Assembly: GCF_013307225.1 (NCBI RefSeq)
Contig: NZ_CP028942.1
Coordinates: 1,764,965-1,828,964 of the forward strand
Direction of reading: 5' to 3'
Origin: Polynucleobacter tropicus
GTDB taxonomy: Bacteria; Pseudomonadota; Gammaproteobacteria; Burkholderiales; Burkholderiaceae
Length of the DNA: 64,000 bases
The notes beneath the pieces were generated by a model. That model was not told the DNA's origin. It saw only the letters and a list, made by a program, of their open reading frames with translations, and ran no database searches. Positions 6,677 to 19,666 of the stretch are shown here, piece after piece; position 1 is the stretch's first letter; each line of letters starts with the position of its first letter. The translations under genes were made by a program, and so were the position numbers.

Positions 6677-7789
6677 TTAGGCGGAAATAATTCCGCCACC
6701 CAAACAAATATCACCGTCATACAAAACGGCGGATTGCCCAGGGGTTACTGCCCATTGAGGCTCAGGAAAATCTAAACTGAAGTCTTGTGATGAATTGCCT
6801 GCATTTAGAACACAAGCAGAGTCAGCTTGTCGATATCGTGTTTTAGCCGAGTAAGAACCAGATGCGGGTGCGCTTCCAGAAATCCAACTAGCATCCATCG
6901 CTTCAAGCCGCTCCGCCAATAGCCATGGGTGTTCGTGGCCCTGCACCACATATAAAGTGTTGTTTGCCACGTCCTTACGAGCAACGTACCACGCATCACC
7001 ATTGCCATCCTGACTTCCACCCAAGCCAATTCCCTTGCGCTGCCCCAAGGTGAAAAAAGCTAAGCCCATGTGCTCACCAACAACCTTGCCTTCAGGGGTT
7101 TTAATTGGTCCAGGTATGCGTGGCAAATAACGATTTAAAAATTCTCTAAACGGTCTCTCACCAATAAAACAAATGCCAGTGGAATCTTTTTTCTTGGCGT
7201 TATGCAAGCCAATTTTTTCAGCGATAGTACGTACTTCCGTTTTAGGAATTTCGCCCAATGGAAATAAAACGTTTGCTAATTGCTGTTGTGTCAAGCGGTG
7301 CAAAAAATAACTTTGATCTTTAGTGGCATCTAAAGCTTTCAAAAGCTGCACCCTGCCACCTTCATGTCGCACTCTAGCGTAATGGCCGGTAGCAATCGCA
7401 TCAGCACCCAAACTCATGGCATGGTCTAAAAACGCCTTGAACTTAATTTCGGCATTACATAAGACATCTGGATTTGGGGTGCGTCCGGCAGCGTATTCAC
7501 GTAAAAAATCCGCAAATACTCGCTCACGATATTCAGCAGCAAAATTAACCGCCTCGACATCAATTCCGATCAAATCTGCAACCGAGACGACATCCAGCCA
7601 ATCTTGGCGGGCGGAGCAATATTCATCGTTGTCGTCATCCTCCCAATTTTTCATGAAAAGGCCTACAACCTCATAGCCCTGCTCTTTGAGCATCCAAGCC
7701 GCAACAGACGAATCTACCCCTCCAGACATGCCAATAACGACTTTCTTGGGGTTTGTGGGCGGGATTGCCGAGGAATTGAGCTGGATCAT
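6677..7789 (-). CDS. mnmA: tRNA-specific 2-thiouridylase MnmA
   Basis: MnmA adds sulfur to C2 of U34 in the tRNAs for Lys, Glu and Gln, using ATP and a sulfur relay. The product has the PP-loop [11 protein letters not shown] near its N-terminus, the catalytic cysteine in [12 protein letters not shown], and the second cysteine in [12 protein letters not shown]-terminal domains include HPWLLAERL and a final [12 protein letters not shown]. The start at 7789 ([11 protein letters not shown], about 370 residues) is preferred over an upstream ATG at 7822, because it fits the family length. A promoter-like sequence lies just upstream. Confidence 0.95.
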
Positions 7790-7827
7790 CAAAAAATGCG
7801 AGAATTCAATATAAGCTGACAAGCCTT

Positions 7828-7856
7828 ATTGTAGAAGTCTTAGCCTAGATTGACAG
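7828..7856 (-). promoter_or_regulatory. Candidate sigma70 promoter for mnmA
   Basis: On the minus strand CTGTCA (four of six matches to the -35 consensus) is separated by 17 bases from TACAAT (five of six to the -10 consensus). The -10 lies about 40 bases before the preferred mnmA start. Seen by eye only. Confidence 0.5.
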
Positions 7857-7965
7857 AAATTTGGGCAAAAAGGCCATATGTGCTTGTAGGGGAAAATGAG
7901 TGGGTGATTTTTAAGCCACTTAACTAAAATAGTTTTTTTGAAAATTTTGCTTTTGGAGACATGCC

Positions 7966-9099
7966 ATGCGCATAGGAGTGCCGCTGGAAACAAGAACTGG
8001 CGAAACGCGGGTTGCCGCAACACCAGAAACCGTTAAAAAACTCATTGGCCAAGGCCATACCGTTGTCATCCAAAAGGATGCAGGCGTTCAAGCCAGCCAG
8101 CCAGATTCTGCCTATGAAGCTGTAGGCGCATCTATTGGATCTGCAGCAGATGCCTTTGGCGCTGAGATTGTTCTAAAAGTACGCGCCCCTGAAGCTGCGG
8201 AACTCAAACAGATCAAAGCTGGTAGCGTACTTATTGGCATGCTTGATCCATTTGATAACGACAATATCGCCGCGATGGCTGCGCAAGGAATTACCAGCTT
8301 CTCACTAGAAGCCGCACCACGCACTACACGCGCACAAAGCATGGACGTTCTTTCTTCTCAAGCCAACATTGCTGGATACAAAGCGGTAATGGTTGCTGCC
8401 AACGAATACCAACGCTTTATGCCGATGTTGATGACTGCCGCTGGTACCGTTAAAGCAGCGCGCGTATTAATTCTTGGTGCCGGTGTTGCTGGCTTACAAG
8501 CAATTGCAACCGCAAAACGTCTTGGCGCAGTGATTGAAGCGTCCGATGTACGTCCTGCCGCTAAAGAACAAATTGAATCTTTAGGTGCGAAGTTTGTTGA
8601 CGTGCCTTATGAGACCGATGAAGAACGCGAAATTGCTCAAGGTGTTGGTGGCTATGCCCGCCCTATGCCAGAAGCATGGATGAAGCGTCAAGCCGCCTTG
8701 GTTGCTGAGCGCGCCCAACAAGCAGACATCGTCATTACTACCGCATTGATTCCAGGTCGCAAGCCGCCAGTTCTTTTGCATAGCGACACTGTTGCTAATA
8801 TGAAGCCTGGTTCTGTAGTGATCGACTTGGCTGCAGGCAAAGGTGACAATGGCTCTGGTAACTGCCCATTAACTCAAGCCGATAAAGTAGTGAATGCTAA
8901 TGGCGTGAAGATTGTGGGTTATACAAATTTAGCCAGTATGGTTGCTGCGGATGCTTCTGCACTTTATGCCCGTAACTTGCTCGACTTCATGAAATTGATT
9001 GTCGACAAAGAAGCTAAGCTAGTTATCCCAAGCGACGACGATATCGTGACCGCCTGCTTGATGTGTCGTGATGGTCAAGCCATCCGCAAAAACTCATAA
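7966..9099 (+). CDS. pntAA: NAD(P) transhydrogenase subunit alpha, part 1 (domain I)
   Basis: This is the NAD(H)-binding cytosolic domain of the proton-translocating transhydrogenase, which makes NADPH from NADH using the proton motive force. The 377-residue product matches domain [21 protein letters not shown] at the N-terminus, the dinucleotide-binding loop [22 protein letters not shown] near residue 170, and [16 protein letters not shown] with [13 protein letters not shown] in the second half. The protein stops after domain I, so the alpha subunit is split here into two genes, a common arrangement outside enterics. GGAG lies eight bases before the ATG. Confidence 0.95.
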
Positions 9100-9121
9100 A
9101 AATTCATACGAAGGAACTATC

Positions 9122-9463
9122 ATGGATCTCGCTGCTTTTCAAAGCATCCTCACAGTCCAAAACATCACCGTGTTTGTTTTGGCTATTTTTGTGGGCTACC
9201 ACGTTGTTTGGAACGTTACTCCTGCGCTACATACCCCGTTGATGGCGGTTACCAATGCTATTTCTGGAATCATCATTGTTGGTGCACTCTTGCAAACCGA
9301 AGTGATTGGTGGCGATGAAATCACCCTCACCAGCGTTATTGGCGCAGTTGCGGTATTTCTAGCGTCGATCAACATTTTTGGCGGCTTCATGGTGACTCGT
9401 CGCATGCTTGAAATGTTCAAGAAAAAAGCGCCTAAAGCAAATGCAGCTGATGCAGCTAAATAA
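9122..9463 (+). CDS. pntAB: NAD(P) transhydrogenase subunit alpha, part 2 (membrane domain)
   Basis: This small protein of about 113 residues is the membrane part of the split alpha subunit and forms part of the proton channel with PntB. It has three to four hydrophobic helices, with [20 protein letters not shown] as the family signature and [14 protein letters not shown] near the C-terminus. The start at 9122 (MDLAAFQSI) follows GAAGGAAC; the frame is open further upstream into the pntAA tail, but no start there has a binding site. It lies 22 bases after pntAA. Confidence 0.95.
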
Positions 9464-9492
9464 ATAGAACAAGATCTACAGAGACCAAAATA

Positions 9493-10860
9493 ATGTCAAA
9501 CATAACTGCAATTTCTTATCTCATTTCATCGGTATTGTTCATTCTCGCGTTGCGCGGTTTGTCCTCACCAACTACCTCACGCCAAGGCAATACCTTTGGA
9601 ATGATTGGTATGTTGTTGGCTGTAATTACCACCTTCTTTATCCCTGACTTCAAGCCTGCCGTCTCACTCATTGCTGCAGCTGTTGTAGGCGGCGCCATCA
9701 TTGGCACGCTTGCAGCGAAACGCGTGCAAATGACCAAAATGCCAGAGCTAGTGGCATTGATGCACTCATTTGTAGGCTTGTCCGCAGTGTTAATTGCGAT
9801 TGCTGCGGTATTCAATACTGCGCACGAACACACTGGCGCACAAAAGATTGAGCTCTTTATTGGCGCATTTATTGGCGCGATTACTTTCACAGCCTCCGTA
9901 ATTGCATTTGGCAAGCTTTCTGGAAAAGTAAGTGGTAAGCCAGTCAGCTTTACTGGCCAACATCTGCTCAACTTAATTCTTGCAATCTCTATGGTTGGAG
10001 CTGGTATTGCTTACTACATGGTAGATAGTCATGCAGCCTTTATGGCCATGTGTGCTATTGCATTAGTACTCGGCATCACCTTGATCATTCCCATTGGCGG
10101 CGCGGATATGCCTGTGGTGGTATCCATGCTGAACAGCTATTCTGGTTGGGCAGCAGCTGGTATTGGTTTCACCCTTAATAATCCAGTACTAATTATTGCT
10201 GGCGCATGTGTAGGCTCTTCAGGCGCGATTCTTTCTTACATCATGTGTAAGGCAATGAACCGCTCGATCCTTGCTGTATTGCTTGGCGGCTTTGGTGCTG
10301 AAGCAGCAGCTGGTGGCGCTGATGATGGTGGTCCAAAGAACTACAAAACAGGCTCACCTGAAGATGCAGCATTCCTGATGGAAAATGCTGACACAGTCAT
10401 TATTGTTCCTGGTTATGGTCTTGCCGTTGCTCGCGCTCAGCATGCCTTAAAAGAGTTAACGGAAAAACTGACTCACCACGGTGTAACTGTTAAATACGCA
10501 ATTCACCCAGTTGCTGGTCGTATGCCTGGACACATGAACGTACTATTGGCTGAAGCAGAAGTACCATACGATCAAGTGTTTGAAATGGAAGATATCAACA
10601 GTGATTTCGGTCAAGCAGATGTGGTTTTAGTACTTGGTGCTAACGACGTGGTGAACCCGGCAGCTCGCACTCCTGGAAGCCCAATCTTTGGCATGCCAAT
10701 TTTGGAAGCATTTAAAGCTAAAACCATCATCGTTAATAAGCGCTCAATGGCAGCAGGTTATGCCGGCCTAGATAACGAGCTCTTCTACATGGATAAAACC
10801 ATGATGGTCTTTGGTGATGCGAAGAAGGTCGTGGAGGATATGGTCAAGGCGGTTGAGTAA
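9493..10860 (+). CDS. pntB: NAD(P) transhydrogenase subunit beta
   Basis: PntB carries the remaining membrane helices and the NADP(H)-binding domain III of the transhydrogenase. The 455-residue product begins with some nine membrane helices, including MPVVVSMLNSYSGWAAAGIG, followed by the cytosolic domain with VIIVPGYGLAVARAQHAL, HPVAGRMPGHMNVLLAEA and VLVLGANDVVNPAA. It closes the pntAA-pntAB-pntB operon and is followed by a strong terminator. Confidence 0.97.
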   Translation: MSNITAISYLISSVLFILALRGLSSPTTSRQGNTFGMIGMLLAVITTFFIPDFKPAVSLIAAAVVGGAIIGTLAAKRVQMTKMPELVALMHSFVGLSAVLIAIAAVFNTAHEHTGAQKIELFIGAFIGAITFTASVIAFGKLSGKVSGKPVSFTGQHLLNLILAISMVGAGIAYYMVDSHAAFMAMCAIALVLGITLIIPIGGADMPVVVSMLNSYSGWAAAGIGFTLNNPVLIIAGACVGSSGAILSYIMCKAMNRSILAVLLGGFGAEAAAGGADDGGPKNYKTGSPEDAAFLMENADTVIIVPGYGLAVARAQHALKELTEKLTHHGVTVKYAIHPVAGRMPGHMNVLLAEAEVPYDQVFEMEDINSDFGQADVVLVLGANDVVNPAARTPGSPIFGMPILEAFKAKTIIVNKRSMAAGYAGLDNELFYMDKTMMVFGDAKKVVEDMVKAVE

Positions 10861-15565: not shown

Positions 15566-15592
15566 TTAGCACTCGCACGGAGGGAGTGCTGA
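15566..15592. promoter_or_regulatory. CIRCE operator (HrcA binding site)
   Basis: TTAGCACTC, a nine-base spacer, then GAGTGCTGA. This matches the CIRCE consensus TTAGCACTC-N9-GAGTGCTAA at 17 of 18 arm positions. It touches the -10 box of the groES promoter. The established reading is repression by HrcA, relieved on heat shock when GroEL is titrated by unfolded protein. The hrcA gene is not in this window. Confidence 0.95.
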
Positions 15593-15680: not shown

Positions 15681-15696
15681 GTAGGAAGATTCCTAC
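15681..15696. promoter_or_regulatory. Palindrome, candidate BvgA-type operator
   Basis: GTAGGAA-GA-TTCCTAC is a perfect inverted repeat. Read as two abutting heptads in opposite orientation, one is ATTCCTA, which fits the BvgA heptad T/A-T-T-C-C/T-T-A exactly; the other, CTTCCTA, fits six of seven. Its centre is near position -64 relative to the start site expected from the candidate promoter at 15718-15746, a usual place for an activator. The function is inference. Confidence 0.45.
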
Positions 15697-15717: not shown

Positions 15718-15746
15718 TTACCGCTCCAATCTGACCTGCCTAGACT
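15718..15746 (+). promoter_or_regulatory. Candidate weak promoter of the EAL-RR-kinase locus
   Basis: TTACCG (four of six to the -35 consensus), 17 bases, then TAGACT (four of six to the -10 consensus), ending 26 bases before the preferred ATG. Such a weak promoter would fit control by an activator bound at the upstream palindrome. Confidence 0.35.
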
Positions 15747-15772
15747 GAACAGTCACTGATTGGAGAATGCTG

Positions 15773-16615
15773 ATGAGCCCGAAATCCCGGCTGTACACGC
15801 TTGTAAAAGCATGGAAGAACAAGCCCTTCCAGGAAGTACGAGACGCCTGTGGCGCACCCTGGCTTGGCCTAAATAGCCAGGCTCTTGAAGAACATCAATC
15901 CTGGTCCAAGCGACAAGCGATTAGTCATGAACCTATTTTTAATAACAAAGGCACAAAACTGACAGGATCATTATTTAGACCGCTACTACAGGCCCCCGAC
16001 ATGCAATTGCTCCGTTTATTCATGGAGGGCCTGGATACGATCTCCTACTGGCACCGTAGCGGTCGTTTCATTCCTGGAATTTTGCCCATTCCAATACATG
16101 CAATTGCCAACAGCGAATATGTTGATGCATTAAGCGACTTAATACTGAATTCTCGACTACCAGTTGGATTGGTTGCACTAGGCATTCAATCACTTCCCGA
16201 ACCTAATTTTGCCGATGCTTGCACAGAGGGCTTACTGCGCATGCGTCGCCTTGGCGTATTACTTCACTTCATTCATTTCACCGGCACTCTCCAAGAGCTT
16301 CAGTGGGTAGATGAATTAAAAATGGAAGGAATTCATCTCAATATGAATGCACTTCGCGAGCAAGCTCTTGCGCCAGATGTCCTGTCCAGCATCAGACGAG
16401 GACCATATTCATCAACCCAGATCTATGCCAGCAATATGACGCTTGTGAAGGATTTAGAAAATGCGACTGCCTGGCAAATAGACCATTGCTATGGCGGCCT
16501 CATGATGCCTCCCATCAGCAGGCATCAGATGTTACAGATTAACGATAGTCGAATCGCTAAAGCCATTTTTTCGCTGCACCCTCATCAACACCTAAACCGA
16601 AATGGAGACAAGTAA
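15773..16615 (+). CDS. Degenerate EAL-domain protein (BvgR-like position)
   Basis: A soluble protein of about 280 residues without signal peptide or membrane helix. The second half follows the EAL (c-di-GMP phosphodiesterase) fold: LPVGLVALGIQSLPEPNF where the EAL strand would be, LLRMRRLGVLLHFIHFTG where active enzymes have the DDFG region, LKMEGIHLNMNALRE where they have the KID region, and WQIDHCYGGLMMPPIS like the usual C-terminal GYLFxxP. The catalytic Glu-Ala-Leu and acidic metal ligands are not visible, so it is probably inactive and acts as a sensor or partner protein. The start at 15773 is chosen over ATG 15767 because GGAG is only one base from the latter. Its stop overlaps the next start (TAATG). 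Confidence 0.6.
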   Translation: MSPKSRLYTLVKAWKNKPFQEVRDACGAPWLGLNSQALEEHQSWSKRQAISHEPIFNNKGTKLTGSLFRPLLQAPDMQLLRLFMEGLDTISYWHRSGRFIPGILPIPIHAIANSEYVDALSDLILNSRLPVGLVALGIQSLPEPNFADACTEGLLRMRRLGVLLHFIHFTGTLQELQWVDELKMEGIHLNMNALREQALAPDVLSSIRRGPYSSTQIYASNMTLVKDLENATAWQIDHCYGGLMMPPISRHQMLQINDSRIAKAIFSLHPHQHLNRNGDK

Positions 16616-17238
16616 TGAGAAAACGCGTGATGTTGGTAGATGACCATCCTGCAATGCTGATGGCTCTAAAAAGTATGTTGCAAGACCAGTTAGTATTTGA
16701 AGTCGTTGGGCAATCGCAGAATGGCGAGGAATGCCTTCGATCTATTAAAGATATCAATCCCGACATGGTGATTTTAGATCTGGACATGCCAAAGACGGAT
16801 GGCTTTGATGTTATTCGCCGCATAGGAATCATGTATCCCGATATTCGTATGTTGATTTTGTCCAGCATGGATGAAGCGGTCTATGGCGGGCGCGTTCGAT
16901 CGCTAGGCGGGCATGGCTTCGTTAACAAAACCGCCGGGGCAGATGTGATTCTGGCAGCCTGCGTCGCGATTTCCCAAGGCTATACATTTTTCACATATGG
17001 AAAAAATGGGAATAGCTCGTTAACCGACAGTGAAAAACTGGCGATGATCTCAGATCGAGAACTACAAGTCATGAAATATCTTGGCAAAGGAAATACCAAT
17101 CAGCAGATCTCGGATTTACTACATATCAGCAATAAGACTGTAGCCACATACAAAACGCGCGTCTTTGACAAACTCGGCATTAACAATATTGCCGATTTAA
17201 TTCTGTTCTGCAGAATGAATAACATCATCGAAAGCTAA
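16615..17238 (+). CDS. NarL/BvgA-type response regulator
   Basis: A 207-residue two-domain regulator. The receiver domain (about 1-125) has VDDHP for the acidic pocket, phospho-acceptor Asp55 in VILDLDMP, a serine pair in LILSSMDE and a lysine in GFVNKTAGA. The C-terminal LuxR-type helix-turn-helix has LSDREL-like ISDRELQVMKYLGKGNTNQQ and ISNKTVATYKTRVFDKLGI. The architecture matches BvgA, EvgA and RocA. The start shares one base with the stop of the EAL gene and the kinase gene follows seven bases later, so the three form one unit. It is presumably phosphorylated by that kinase. Confidence 0.9.
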   Translation: MRKRVMLVDDHPAMLMALKSMLQDQLVFEVVGQSQNGEECLRSIKDINPDMVILDLDMPKTDGFDVIRRIGIMYPDIRMLILSSMDEAVYGGRVRSLGGHGFVNKTAGADVILAACVAISQGYTFFTYGKNGNSSLTDSEKLAMISDRELQVMKYLGKGNTNQQISDLLHISNKTVATYKTRVFDKLGINNIADLILFCRMNNIIES

Positions 17239-17245
17239 TCGCGTT

Positions 17246-19666
17246 ATGCATCGATTCTTTGTTAAGGCAGTTTTCTCTTGCGGACTTCTTCTTAGCGGAG
17301 TTGCACACGCCACTTCAATCAGTTCGGCCGAGCAGCGTTGGATCGATGCACACCCAATTGTTCATTTCAGTATTCATGAGAAATATGCGCCCTACCTTTT
17401 AGGGGGCGAAGATATTGGCTCTCATGGCGTCTTTCATAAAATCCTCCAAAAACTCAGCGAACACACCCAACAAGAATTTCGTCCAAAGTGGCGAAAAACA
17501 GAACAAGAAGGCTTAAAACAATTAGCCAATGGAGAGGTGGATTTCATGATTGATCCACCGCCCCTGAATGATGAATACCTTCGCTTTGGCTCTTTGTCAG
17601 AAGCTATCTTCTGGGGTCAAGACGCCATTCTCACCAAAAGAAATAATGGAGATGGAATCAGCTCACAAGCAAAACTTGGCTATCTTGATCGTGGCTATGA
17701 GAATCCTCCCGTCATTACGGACCCACAAACCAGCCCATCAAATAATCCAGAGAAATTATTGTTGAGCTTACTAGCTAATGACATAGAAGCCTTAGTGCTT
17801 CCAATCCGTTTAGCTCAACATTTACTCAAATACCGAACCAATCAAGAGCTTCAATTAGATGGAATTTACCAGCGAGAGCCATTTGCCTATCGCTGGCTTA
17901 TTTCTCATGAAGACAAACCCTTTCATCAACTCCTAGATCGTTTTCTAACTCGTCTTGATCCTATTGAATCTCGACATCTTTTCGCACTTGAAATATACCC
18001 CAGCGAAAATATTGCGGATCCAGCTAGCACACTAGGCTGGTTTACCAGCCTAGTGATTCTCATGATTGGCGGCACTCTAATATGGGGTCTATATAAAAAG
18101 CGATTATCCCAAGAGCAAGCTTTGGCAAGTCTCAACACCTCGAAAGAGATCGCAGAAAAAGCAAATGCCGCCAAAACTTCTTTTTTGGCAACGATGAGCC
18201 ATGAGATTCGGACGCCAATGAATGCAATCTTAGGTGTACAAGAACTGTTGCTCAGTAGCAAGCAATTTCCTACGCATGAGAAATCATTATTAAAGAGTGC
18301 ACATGCCTCTGCAGAGTCTTTGCTCGGAATTCTTAACCAGGTTCTTGACCTCGCAAAGATTGAGGCTGGCAAACTCACTCTGAACTTAGAACCTTGTTGC
18401 TTAAATAGCATCATCGACAACCTTGATCATGCCTTTTCAGCGGTTGCCACTAAGCACAATTTAATTCTTCACACTTCCAAGGACCCCAGAATCGCTGAGG
18501 CACTCATGATGGATGCCCTTCGTCTTCGTCAAGCCTTACAAAACCTTCTGAGCAACGCCATTAAATTTACCAATCAAGGTGAAATCTATTTCTCCATTAG
18601 CGTGCTAGCGGATGACCATGCAGGCCAATTAATTGAGTTCCGCATTATTGATACTGGCATTGGCATGGGAAAGGAAGAAATTGCGTTAGCCTTACAACCC
18701 TTTGAACAAATACCAGGCAAAAGCAGTAACGAGAGCGGAACCGGCCTGGGCCTCACTATTACCAATCACTTAGTGAGTTCAATGAACAGCCAGCTGTATT
18801 TTGAGAGCGCGCCAGGCTTAGGTAGCAATATTCACTTTTCAATTGCCTTCCCACGCACCAGCATTGCAGCCTCACATACTTCATATAAAGAAGCTCTGGT
18901 AGAAAATGCTAAGAAATTCATCTCCAGAAATCACCCCGAGCAACCCCTTAAAGCCTTGGTCGTGGAAGATCATCCTGCCAGCAGACAGATCATTTCCCTT
19001 CAACTTAAAGCTTTAGGAATTCAAGTATCTGTTTGTGACAACGCGGATATAGCTTTAGATGAGATTTATCAAAATACTTTTGATTTGCTGATTACAGATC
19101 AGTCTATTCCTGGCATGCAAGGGTCTGAATTGGCTAAACGTATACGAGAGATGGGATACAACGATCTAGTGATTATTGGTGTCACTGCGGATATTTACGC
19201 GCTGGATTCTCGTCATCACTTTTTATCGGCCGGAATGAATGGGGTTCTGATCAAACCGCTCAGCCTACTAGGCCTTGAAAATGAATTAGCGCGCTATTTT
19301 TCTATAACCACTACAACGCCACCACCCCAAAACAATGAAGAAGAAAGCTTATCATTTGATGCATTCGCTAGCCTGATTGCCAATGATCCAAAACAGATAT
19401 CAATCATCCTAGATGAAATTAAAAAAGTACACGATGAAGCGCTTTTGAAATTAAGCAATCCATCAATCGATGAAGACGAACTTGCTAGCCTTATTCATAA
19501 GGTAAAGGGCGGAGCCCTTTTACTACAAGCGACTCATTTTGTTAAAAACTGCGAAGTCCTCGAAAAAGAAGCCAATTTTGTGAAGCGACTGAGTACTTTT
19601 AAAGATCTTCTACTGAAGCAAAATCGGCTTATTCAGCGCTATCAACAAAATCAAATACACATTTAG
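17246..19666 (+). CDS. BvgS/EvgS-type hybrid sensor histidine kinase
   Basis: An 806-residue unorthodox kinase with a full phosphorelay. A signal peptide (1-22) leads to one periplasmic SBP_bac_3-like Venus flytrap domain (about 25-255), then a membrane helix near 265-287. The HisKA domain has MSHEIRTPMN with His319; the ATPase has the N-box NLLSNAIKF near 433, DTGIGMG near 470 and GTGLGLTIT near 498. A receiver domain has LVVEDHP near 571 and Asp618 in LLITDQSIPGM. A C-terminal Hpt domain has His751 in LIHKVKGGA. No PAS domain is seen between membrane helix and HisKA, and there is only one flytrap, whereas BvgS has two flytraps and a PAS. The ligand is unknown. Confidence 0.9.
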   Translation: MHRFFVKAVFSCGLLLSGVAHATSISSAEQRWIDAHPIVHFSIHEKYAPYLLGGEDIGSHGVFHKILQKLSEHTQQEFRPKWRKTEQEGLKQLANGEVDFMIDPPPLNDEYLRFGSLSEAIFWGQDAILTKRNNGDGISSQAKLGYLDRGYENPPVITDPQTSPSNNPEKLLLSLLANDIEALVLPIRLAQHLLKYRTNQELQLDGIYQREPFAYRWLISHEDKPFHQLLDRFLTRLDPIESRHLFALEIYPSENIADPASTLGWFTSLVILMIGGTLIWGLYKKRLSQEQALASLNTSKEIAEKANAAKTSFLATMSHEIRTPMNAILGVQELLLSSKQFPTHEKSLLKSAHASAESLLGILNQVLDLAKIEAGKLTLNLEPCCLNSIIDNLDHAFSAVATKHNLILHTSKDPRIAEALMMDALRLRQALQNLLSNAIKFTNQGEIYFSISVLADDHAGQLIEFRIIDTGIGMGKEEIALALQPFEQIPGKSSNESGTGLGLTITNHLVSSMNSQLYFESAPGLGSNIHFSIAFPRTSIAASHTSYKEALVENAKKFISRNHPEQPLKALVVEDHPASRQIISLQLKALGIQVSVCDNADIALDEIYQNTFDLLITDQSIPGMQGSELAKRIREMGYNDLVIIGVTADIYALDSRHHFLSAGMNGVLIKPLSLLGLENELARYFSITTTTPPPQNNEEESLSFDAFASLIANDPKQISIILDEIKKVHDEALLKLSNPSIDEDELASLIHKVKGGALLLQATHFVKNCEVLEKEANFVKRLSTFKDLLLKQNRLIQRYQQNQIHI

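Follow-up and report, generated by a model that had tools for sequence, protein, structure and literature searches.

The question raised by this locus is whether three tightly linked genes of Polynucleobacter tropicus form a signalling module comparable to Bordetella BvgR-BvgA-BvgS, and what the first gene product, an EAL-fold protein with no active site, does in such a module. The window (the whole 64,000-nucleotide stretch of DNA analysed here) was taken from a closed 2.04 Mb chromosome. All three open reading frames lie on the plus strand, at 15767/15773-16615, 16615-17238 and 17246-19666; the first two meet in a TAATG junction with a 1-base overlap, and a gap of 7 bases separates the second from the third, so that the compact co-directional arrangement described in the earlier note was confirmed by the coordinates. 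The first gene (gene 1) has two possible start codons. A Shine-Dalgarno GGAG (15762-15765, plus strand) is located 7 nt upstream of the ATG at 15773 and only 1 nt before the ATG at 15767, which is not conserved in relatives; because of this spacing and conservation, the start at 15773, also chosen in the earlier note, was favoured, giving a protein of 280 residues (15773-16615). The trio is flanked by a divergent groES-groEL pair and by dacB, and this setting was kept in many relatives. A CIRCE-like element, TTAGCACTC-N9-GAGTGCTGA, was present upstream of groES-groEL at 15566-15592, pointing to possible HrcA control of the chaperonin operon.

As a single sequence, the window's own copy of gene 1 showed no match in Pfam, NCBIfam or the PDB, and its fold was therefore recognised only through its family, in which we included relatives down to approximately 25% identity. 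The Pfam EAL profile (PF00563) was matched by 22 of the 27 family members, with a best value of 3e-8, and two members of the genus (G009 and G010) exceeded the Pfam EAL cut-off in the genome scan. A search of the PDB with the family profile revealed only EAL structures, including that of RocR, and the hhalign comparison of the family with EAL gave a score of 73, compared with 21 or less in 40 shuffled or reversed controls. The predicted core of gene 1 could be superposed on EAL domains with Z-scores of up to 15.9 (RocR and Lmo0131), and the EAL structures of FimX and LapD were also found among the fold matches. The block means of pLDDT were 65-92 at residues 101-240 of this model and poor elsewhere, the N-terminal 100 residues being of low confidence. 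As evident from the profile, fold and family results, the gene 1 protein is EAL-derived, as had been proposed in the earlier note.

The active site of this EAL-derived protein was lost. All seven metal-binding and catalytic positions (E, N, E, D, K, E and Q, as listed in PMC11537037) were substituted in the gene 1 family, with E replaced by G or S, N by P, E by G, DD by mixed letters, K by H, E by S or G, and Q by Y. The corresponding residues of gene 1 are G67/S68, P107, G139, I169/H170, H190, S222 and Y242, as mapped by profile alignment, in which the EAL motif itself was the least sure position. P107, H190 and Y242 were nearly invariant replacements across the family, and the R of the ExLxR motif was missing in divergent members. 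A Response_reg domain was not matched in any of the 27 family members. Gene 1 thus encodes a stand-alone EAL-like protein with neither catalytic residues nor a DNA-binding domain.

The second gene (16615-17238, plus strand) encodes a response regulator with REC and GerE domains, the latter a LuxR-type HTH, which bears out its assignment to the NarL/BvgA type; its best NCBIfam score was obtained with the EvgA model, below the cut-off of that model, and we place it in the EvgA/BvgA/NarL class. Upstream of the trio, we found an inverted repeat, GTAGGAAGATTCCTAC, with a 7-2-7 architecture (15681-15696, plus strand), which was the sole exact site in the genome (G000). BvgA binds with high affinity to two TTTCCTA heptads in inverted orientation (PMC4314077), and the form TAGGAAA-TTTCCTA was found exactly in L099 and some other genomes. 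The repeat is followed by a -10-like hexamer, TAGACT (15741-15746, plus strand), with a poor -35 element, ttaccg (15718-15723); this putative promoter hexamer was conserved in the clades with flytrap and two-TM kinases. The distance between the repeat and TAGACT or TAAACT was exactly 44 nt in 86 of 86 scored loci, and it was 44 or 45 nt in the deeply diverged two-TM clade. Exact repeat sites were present in 83 of 101 genus genomes, mostly at the trio promoter, and reversed-pattern controls were near zero; the site was absent from the trio promoter in the one-TM kinase clade and in the divergent locus L094. The simplest reading is that the operon would be positively or negatively autoregulated through this candidate site, and the repeat could also belong to another regulator.

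We also looked for further targets of the regulator. The window's own genome contained two one-mismatch sites within open frames, a count not above that of the control, and these were rejected as targets. Extra exact sites were found in single clades, including the end of ligA (8 genomes) and the region between sucA and an HTH gene (3 genomes), and they suggest that the regulator may have further targets there. In the first case (L195-L202, position 2501), an exact GTAGGNNNNTTCCTAC site overlaps the ligA stop codon, and an FAD/NAD-binding and MFS pair or a Nudix gene is located downstream in several of these loci. In the second case (L205, L210 and L211, position 2501), a perfect extended palindrome, TTGTAGGAAATTTCCTACAA, is placed between sucA and a regulator gene of the HTH_17 type; these loci belong to the one-TM kinase clade and their own trio promoter lacks the site. 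In G041 and G005, a perfect site also precedes genes for a CorC-like protein and a T2SSE-type ATPase. This pilus link did not recur in the 98%-identical G090 locus, in a test of loci outside the flytrap clade, and is therefore only a lead. A second inverted repeat, CTCCAATC...GATTGGAG (15724-15731 and 15758-15765), spans the putative -10 element and covers the Shine-Dalgarno sequence of gene 1. Most loci of the main flytrap clade retain it, and deeper clades lack it. It is unlikely to act as an mRNA hairpin because its start lies upstream of the putative -10 element, and a search for a leader RNA switch gave no Rfam match.

The third gene (17246-19666, plus strand) encodes an unorthodox hybrid sensor kinase of 806 residues. 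Its HisKA (18170-18370), HATPase_c (18512-18847) and REC (18956-19267) domains were clearly matched, and the Hpt domain (19436-19567) was a sub-threshold Pfam match (E 0.0011) with a visible H-box, LIHKVKG. A single periplasmic flytrap (VFT) of the BvgS VFT2/EvgS-like type was assigned to 17312-17995, all of these domains being encoded on the plus strand. The flytrap alone gave no single-sequence Pfam match above threshold; the clear matches of its profile were restricted to the periplasmic domains of EvgS and BvgS, of which EvgS was the best, and the predicted fold was closest to BvgS VFT2, BvgS and EvgS. No PAS match was found in the kinase with Pfam. The domain content anticipated in the earlier note, with one flytrap and no PAS domain, was therefore recovered, and the kinase, with its VFT, TM, HisKA, HATPase, REC and sub-threshold Hpt components, belongs to the BvgS/EvgS family of flytrap kinases.

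Upon comparison with Bordetella, the trio resembles BvgRAS on paper in containing a dead stand-alone EAL-fold protein, a regulator of the NarL class and a hybrid kinase with a flytrap, and in the BvgA-like inverted heptad pair, a candidate site, in its promoter. This analogy was strengthened by that heptad pair and by the loss of 12 of 13 EAL residues in BvgR itself (PMC11537037). The likeness is one of features and the gene order differs: gene 1 comes first in the operon, whereas the bvgR gene is located downstream of bvgS, its expression being dependent on BvgA (PMC11537037, PMC12805831). In addition, the kinase of the trio has one flytrap and no PAS domain, in contrast to the two tandem flytraps and PAS domain of BvgS. 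The earlier note had taken these differences as a reduced version of a virulence switch. We found no virulence link, and PAS-less kinases are ordinary, as approximately 30% of two-flytrap BvgS-type kinases lack the domain (PMC5829827); the kinase is a relative of BvgS and EvgS and not a shortened BvgS, and the reduced reading is therefore unsupported. Genuine sensor trimming does occur, but inside the genus Polynucleobacter.

The comparison with Pseudomonas rocS1-rocA1-rocR (and rocR3) was the weaker one. In both cases an EAL protein is encoded alongside a regulator of the NarL class and a flytrap kinase of the unorthodox type. However, RocR is a REC-EAL protein and an active phosphodiesterase, and rocA1 is divergent from rocR-rocS1 (PMC12051241). 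Gene 1 has no receiver domain and no active site, unlike RocR, and its membership of the RocR family was ruled out for this reason. Among degenerate EAL proteins, gene 1 is similar to those of the YdiV type in being a stand-alone, dead EAL fold. YdiV acts by protein contact, and its gene is not known to belong to a two-component operon. The trio also shows similarity to E. coli EvgS-EvgA, to which its flytrap profile and, below the cut-off, its regulator were best matched. EvgAS is not known to have an EAL partner, and its kinase carries a PAS domain in addition to two flytraps. For EvgS, the PAS domain and a large periplasmic region have been described (PMC5573083).

In a sample of one genome per species, gene 1 was present in 139 of 151 genus genomes and in 113 of the 117 of better quality, a few matches being weak or fragmentary. 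The order gene 1-regulator-kinase was identical in the loci read, so that the claims that the EAL gene comes first and is retained beside the regulator in relatives both stood. No close ortholog of the regulator (none above 32% identity) was found in the seven gene 1-less genomes checked (G069, G132, G135, G084, G095, G122 and G037). Quick trees of gene 1 and of the regulator both grouped the loci by kinase type. The trio was not found outside Polynucleobacter in the sampled neighbouring genera; the nearest regulators beyond the genus were 42% identical, and no EAL gene was present in the 14 neighbourhoods read around selected regulators there. Candidates in other Burkholderiaceae were rejected, the gene 1 profile matches being weak and mostly to long ordinary EAL-type proteins. 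In G035 (L203 and L218), approximately 18 kb separates the trio promoter and the first gene 1 codons from the remainder, which is a large insertion or rearrangement. The trio at L094 (G116) is divergent; its kinase has no HisKA Pfam match and a weak receiver match, possibly reflecting a decayed or changed relay.

On balance, we consider it probable that the trio is one autoregulated module of the BvgR-A-S type in which the dead EAL protein works through protein contact, as the current BvgR model also proposes (PMC11537037, PMC12805831). The regulator would receive phosphate from the kinase through the REC and Hpt domains of the latter; a regulator dimer bound to GTAGGNNNNTTCCTAC would switch its own operon. 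Levels of the dead EAL protein would be set by this switching, and the protein may contact the regulator, the kinase or a target protein without cleaving c-di-GMP.

A different role for gene 1 is raised by the kinases of the genus, which range from a full flytrap, through removal of lobe 2, to flytrap-less forms with two or approximately one TM segment, as classified by a hydropathy scan and sequence reading. Lobe 2 was cleanly excised in frame in two lineages, L078 (kinase at 7415-9628) and L082/L219/L220 (1850-3982, 2963-5095 and 2620-4752; DFIIDPP to YAWLxHH), leaving half a flytrap. The flytrap-less kinases, found in other clades, had two TM segments in L085, L087, L088, L091, L093 and L100-L102, and approximately one in L084, L086, L089, L090 and L092. 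The three genes stay together where the flytrap is trimmed or missing, and gene 1 was open in the copies read at such loci. Gene 1 could accordingly be read as supplying the kinase with a cytoplasmic input or as serving as its adaptor, explaining why the flytrap is trimmed or absent while gene 1 is kept. However, flytrap loss may simply reflect a signal that is no longer relevant, gene 1 is broken beside an intact flytrap kinase in two genomes, and the gene 1 and regulator trees do not settle the ancestral kinase type; we regard the adaptor role as rather unlikely. A broader form of the idea, in which the dead EAL protein is the conserved core of the module, replaces both c-di-GMP and the periplasmic sensor, and serves as a c-di-GMP-independent input or gatekeeper of the phosphorelay that permits flytrap excision or absence, is similarly doubtful.

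It is also conceivable that the two-component system is informed of the c-di-GMP level by gene 1, acting as a receptor of the FimX or LapD kind that does not hydrolyse its ligand. Binding of c-di-GMP can persist in EAL domains that have degenerated (PMC12805831), the FimX and LapD structures were among the fold matches, and the window's own genome encodes two GGDEF proteins (C1:639324-639818 and C1:540963-541451), with no EAL-domain match genome-wide in an HMM scan for GGDEF and EAL domains. Against this, gene 1 retains neither the metal-binding letters nor the E of the EAL motif, and divergent family members have also lost the R of ExLxR. Moreover, at the HMM thresholds on which such calls depend, five genomes with neither a GGDEF match nor an over-cut-off EAL match (G001, G004, G011 and G013, 99-100% complete, and G015, 93%) all keep gene 1. 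Since gene 1 persists where c-di-GMP enzymes are not detectable, conserved hydrolysis or sensing of c-di-GMP is unlikely to be its job, barring an undetected cyclase, and a receptor role appears unlikely.

Gene 1 might instead be a decaying hitchhiker carried by its position in the operon. Broken copies exist beside an intact regulator and kinase in L214 (G023) and L215/L079, and gene 1 is thus dispensable in some lineages; gene 1 and the kinase are both broken in L213 and L103, and nearly everything is gone in L212. Passive carriage is nevertheless very improbable, as the dN/dS of gene 1 was approximately 0.05-0.12, indicating purifying selection, and its reading frame is intact in deep clades that share 25-30% identity, seven alignment columns being invariant. 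An active phosphodiesterase like RocR, for which the EAL fold speaks, is hardly credible, given that none of the metal-binding or catalytic positions is kept in the family and that gene 1 is retained in genomes without GGDEF matches.

What is new here is the BvgA-like heptad pair at a fixed spacing, together with the trimming or absence of the flytrap while the trio is kept. The mode of action of BvgR, which lacks catalytic residues, is an unsolved problem, and in Bordetella it is further obscured by effects of c-di-GMP. Polynucleobacter offers a parallel module in small genomes of harmless freshwater bacteria, and because some of its carriers have no detectable c-di-GMP enzymes, a clean test of c-di-GMP-independent action is possible. 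The repeated excision of a flytrap lobe likewise represents a natural experiment on what BvgS-type kinases need for signalling.
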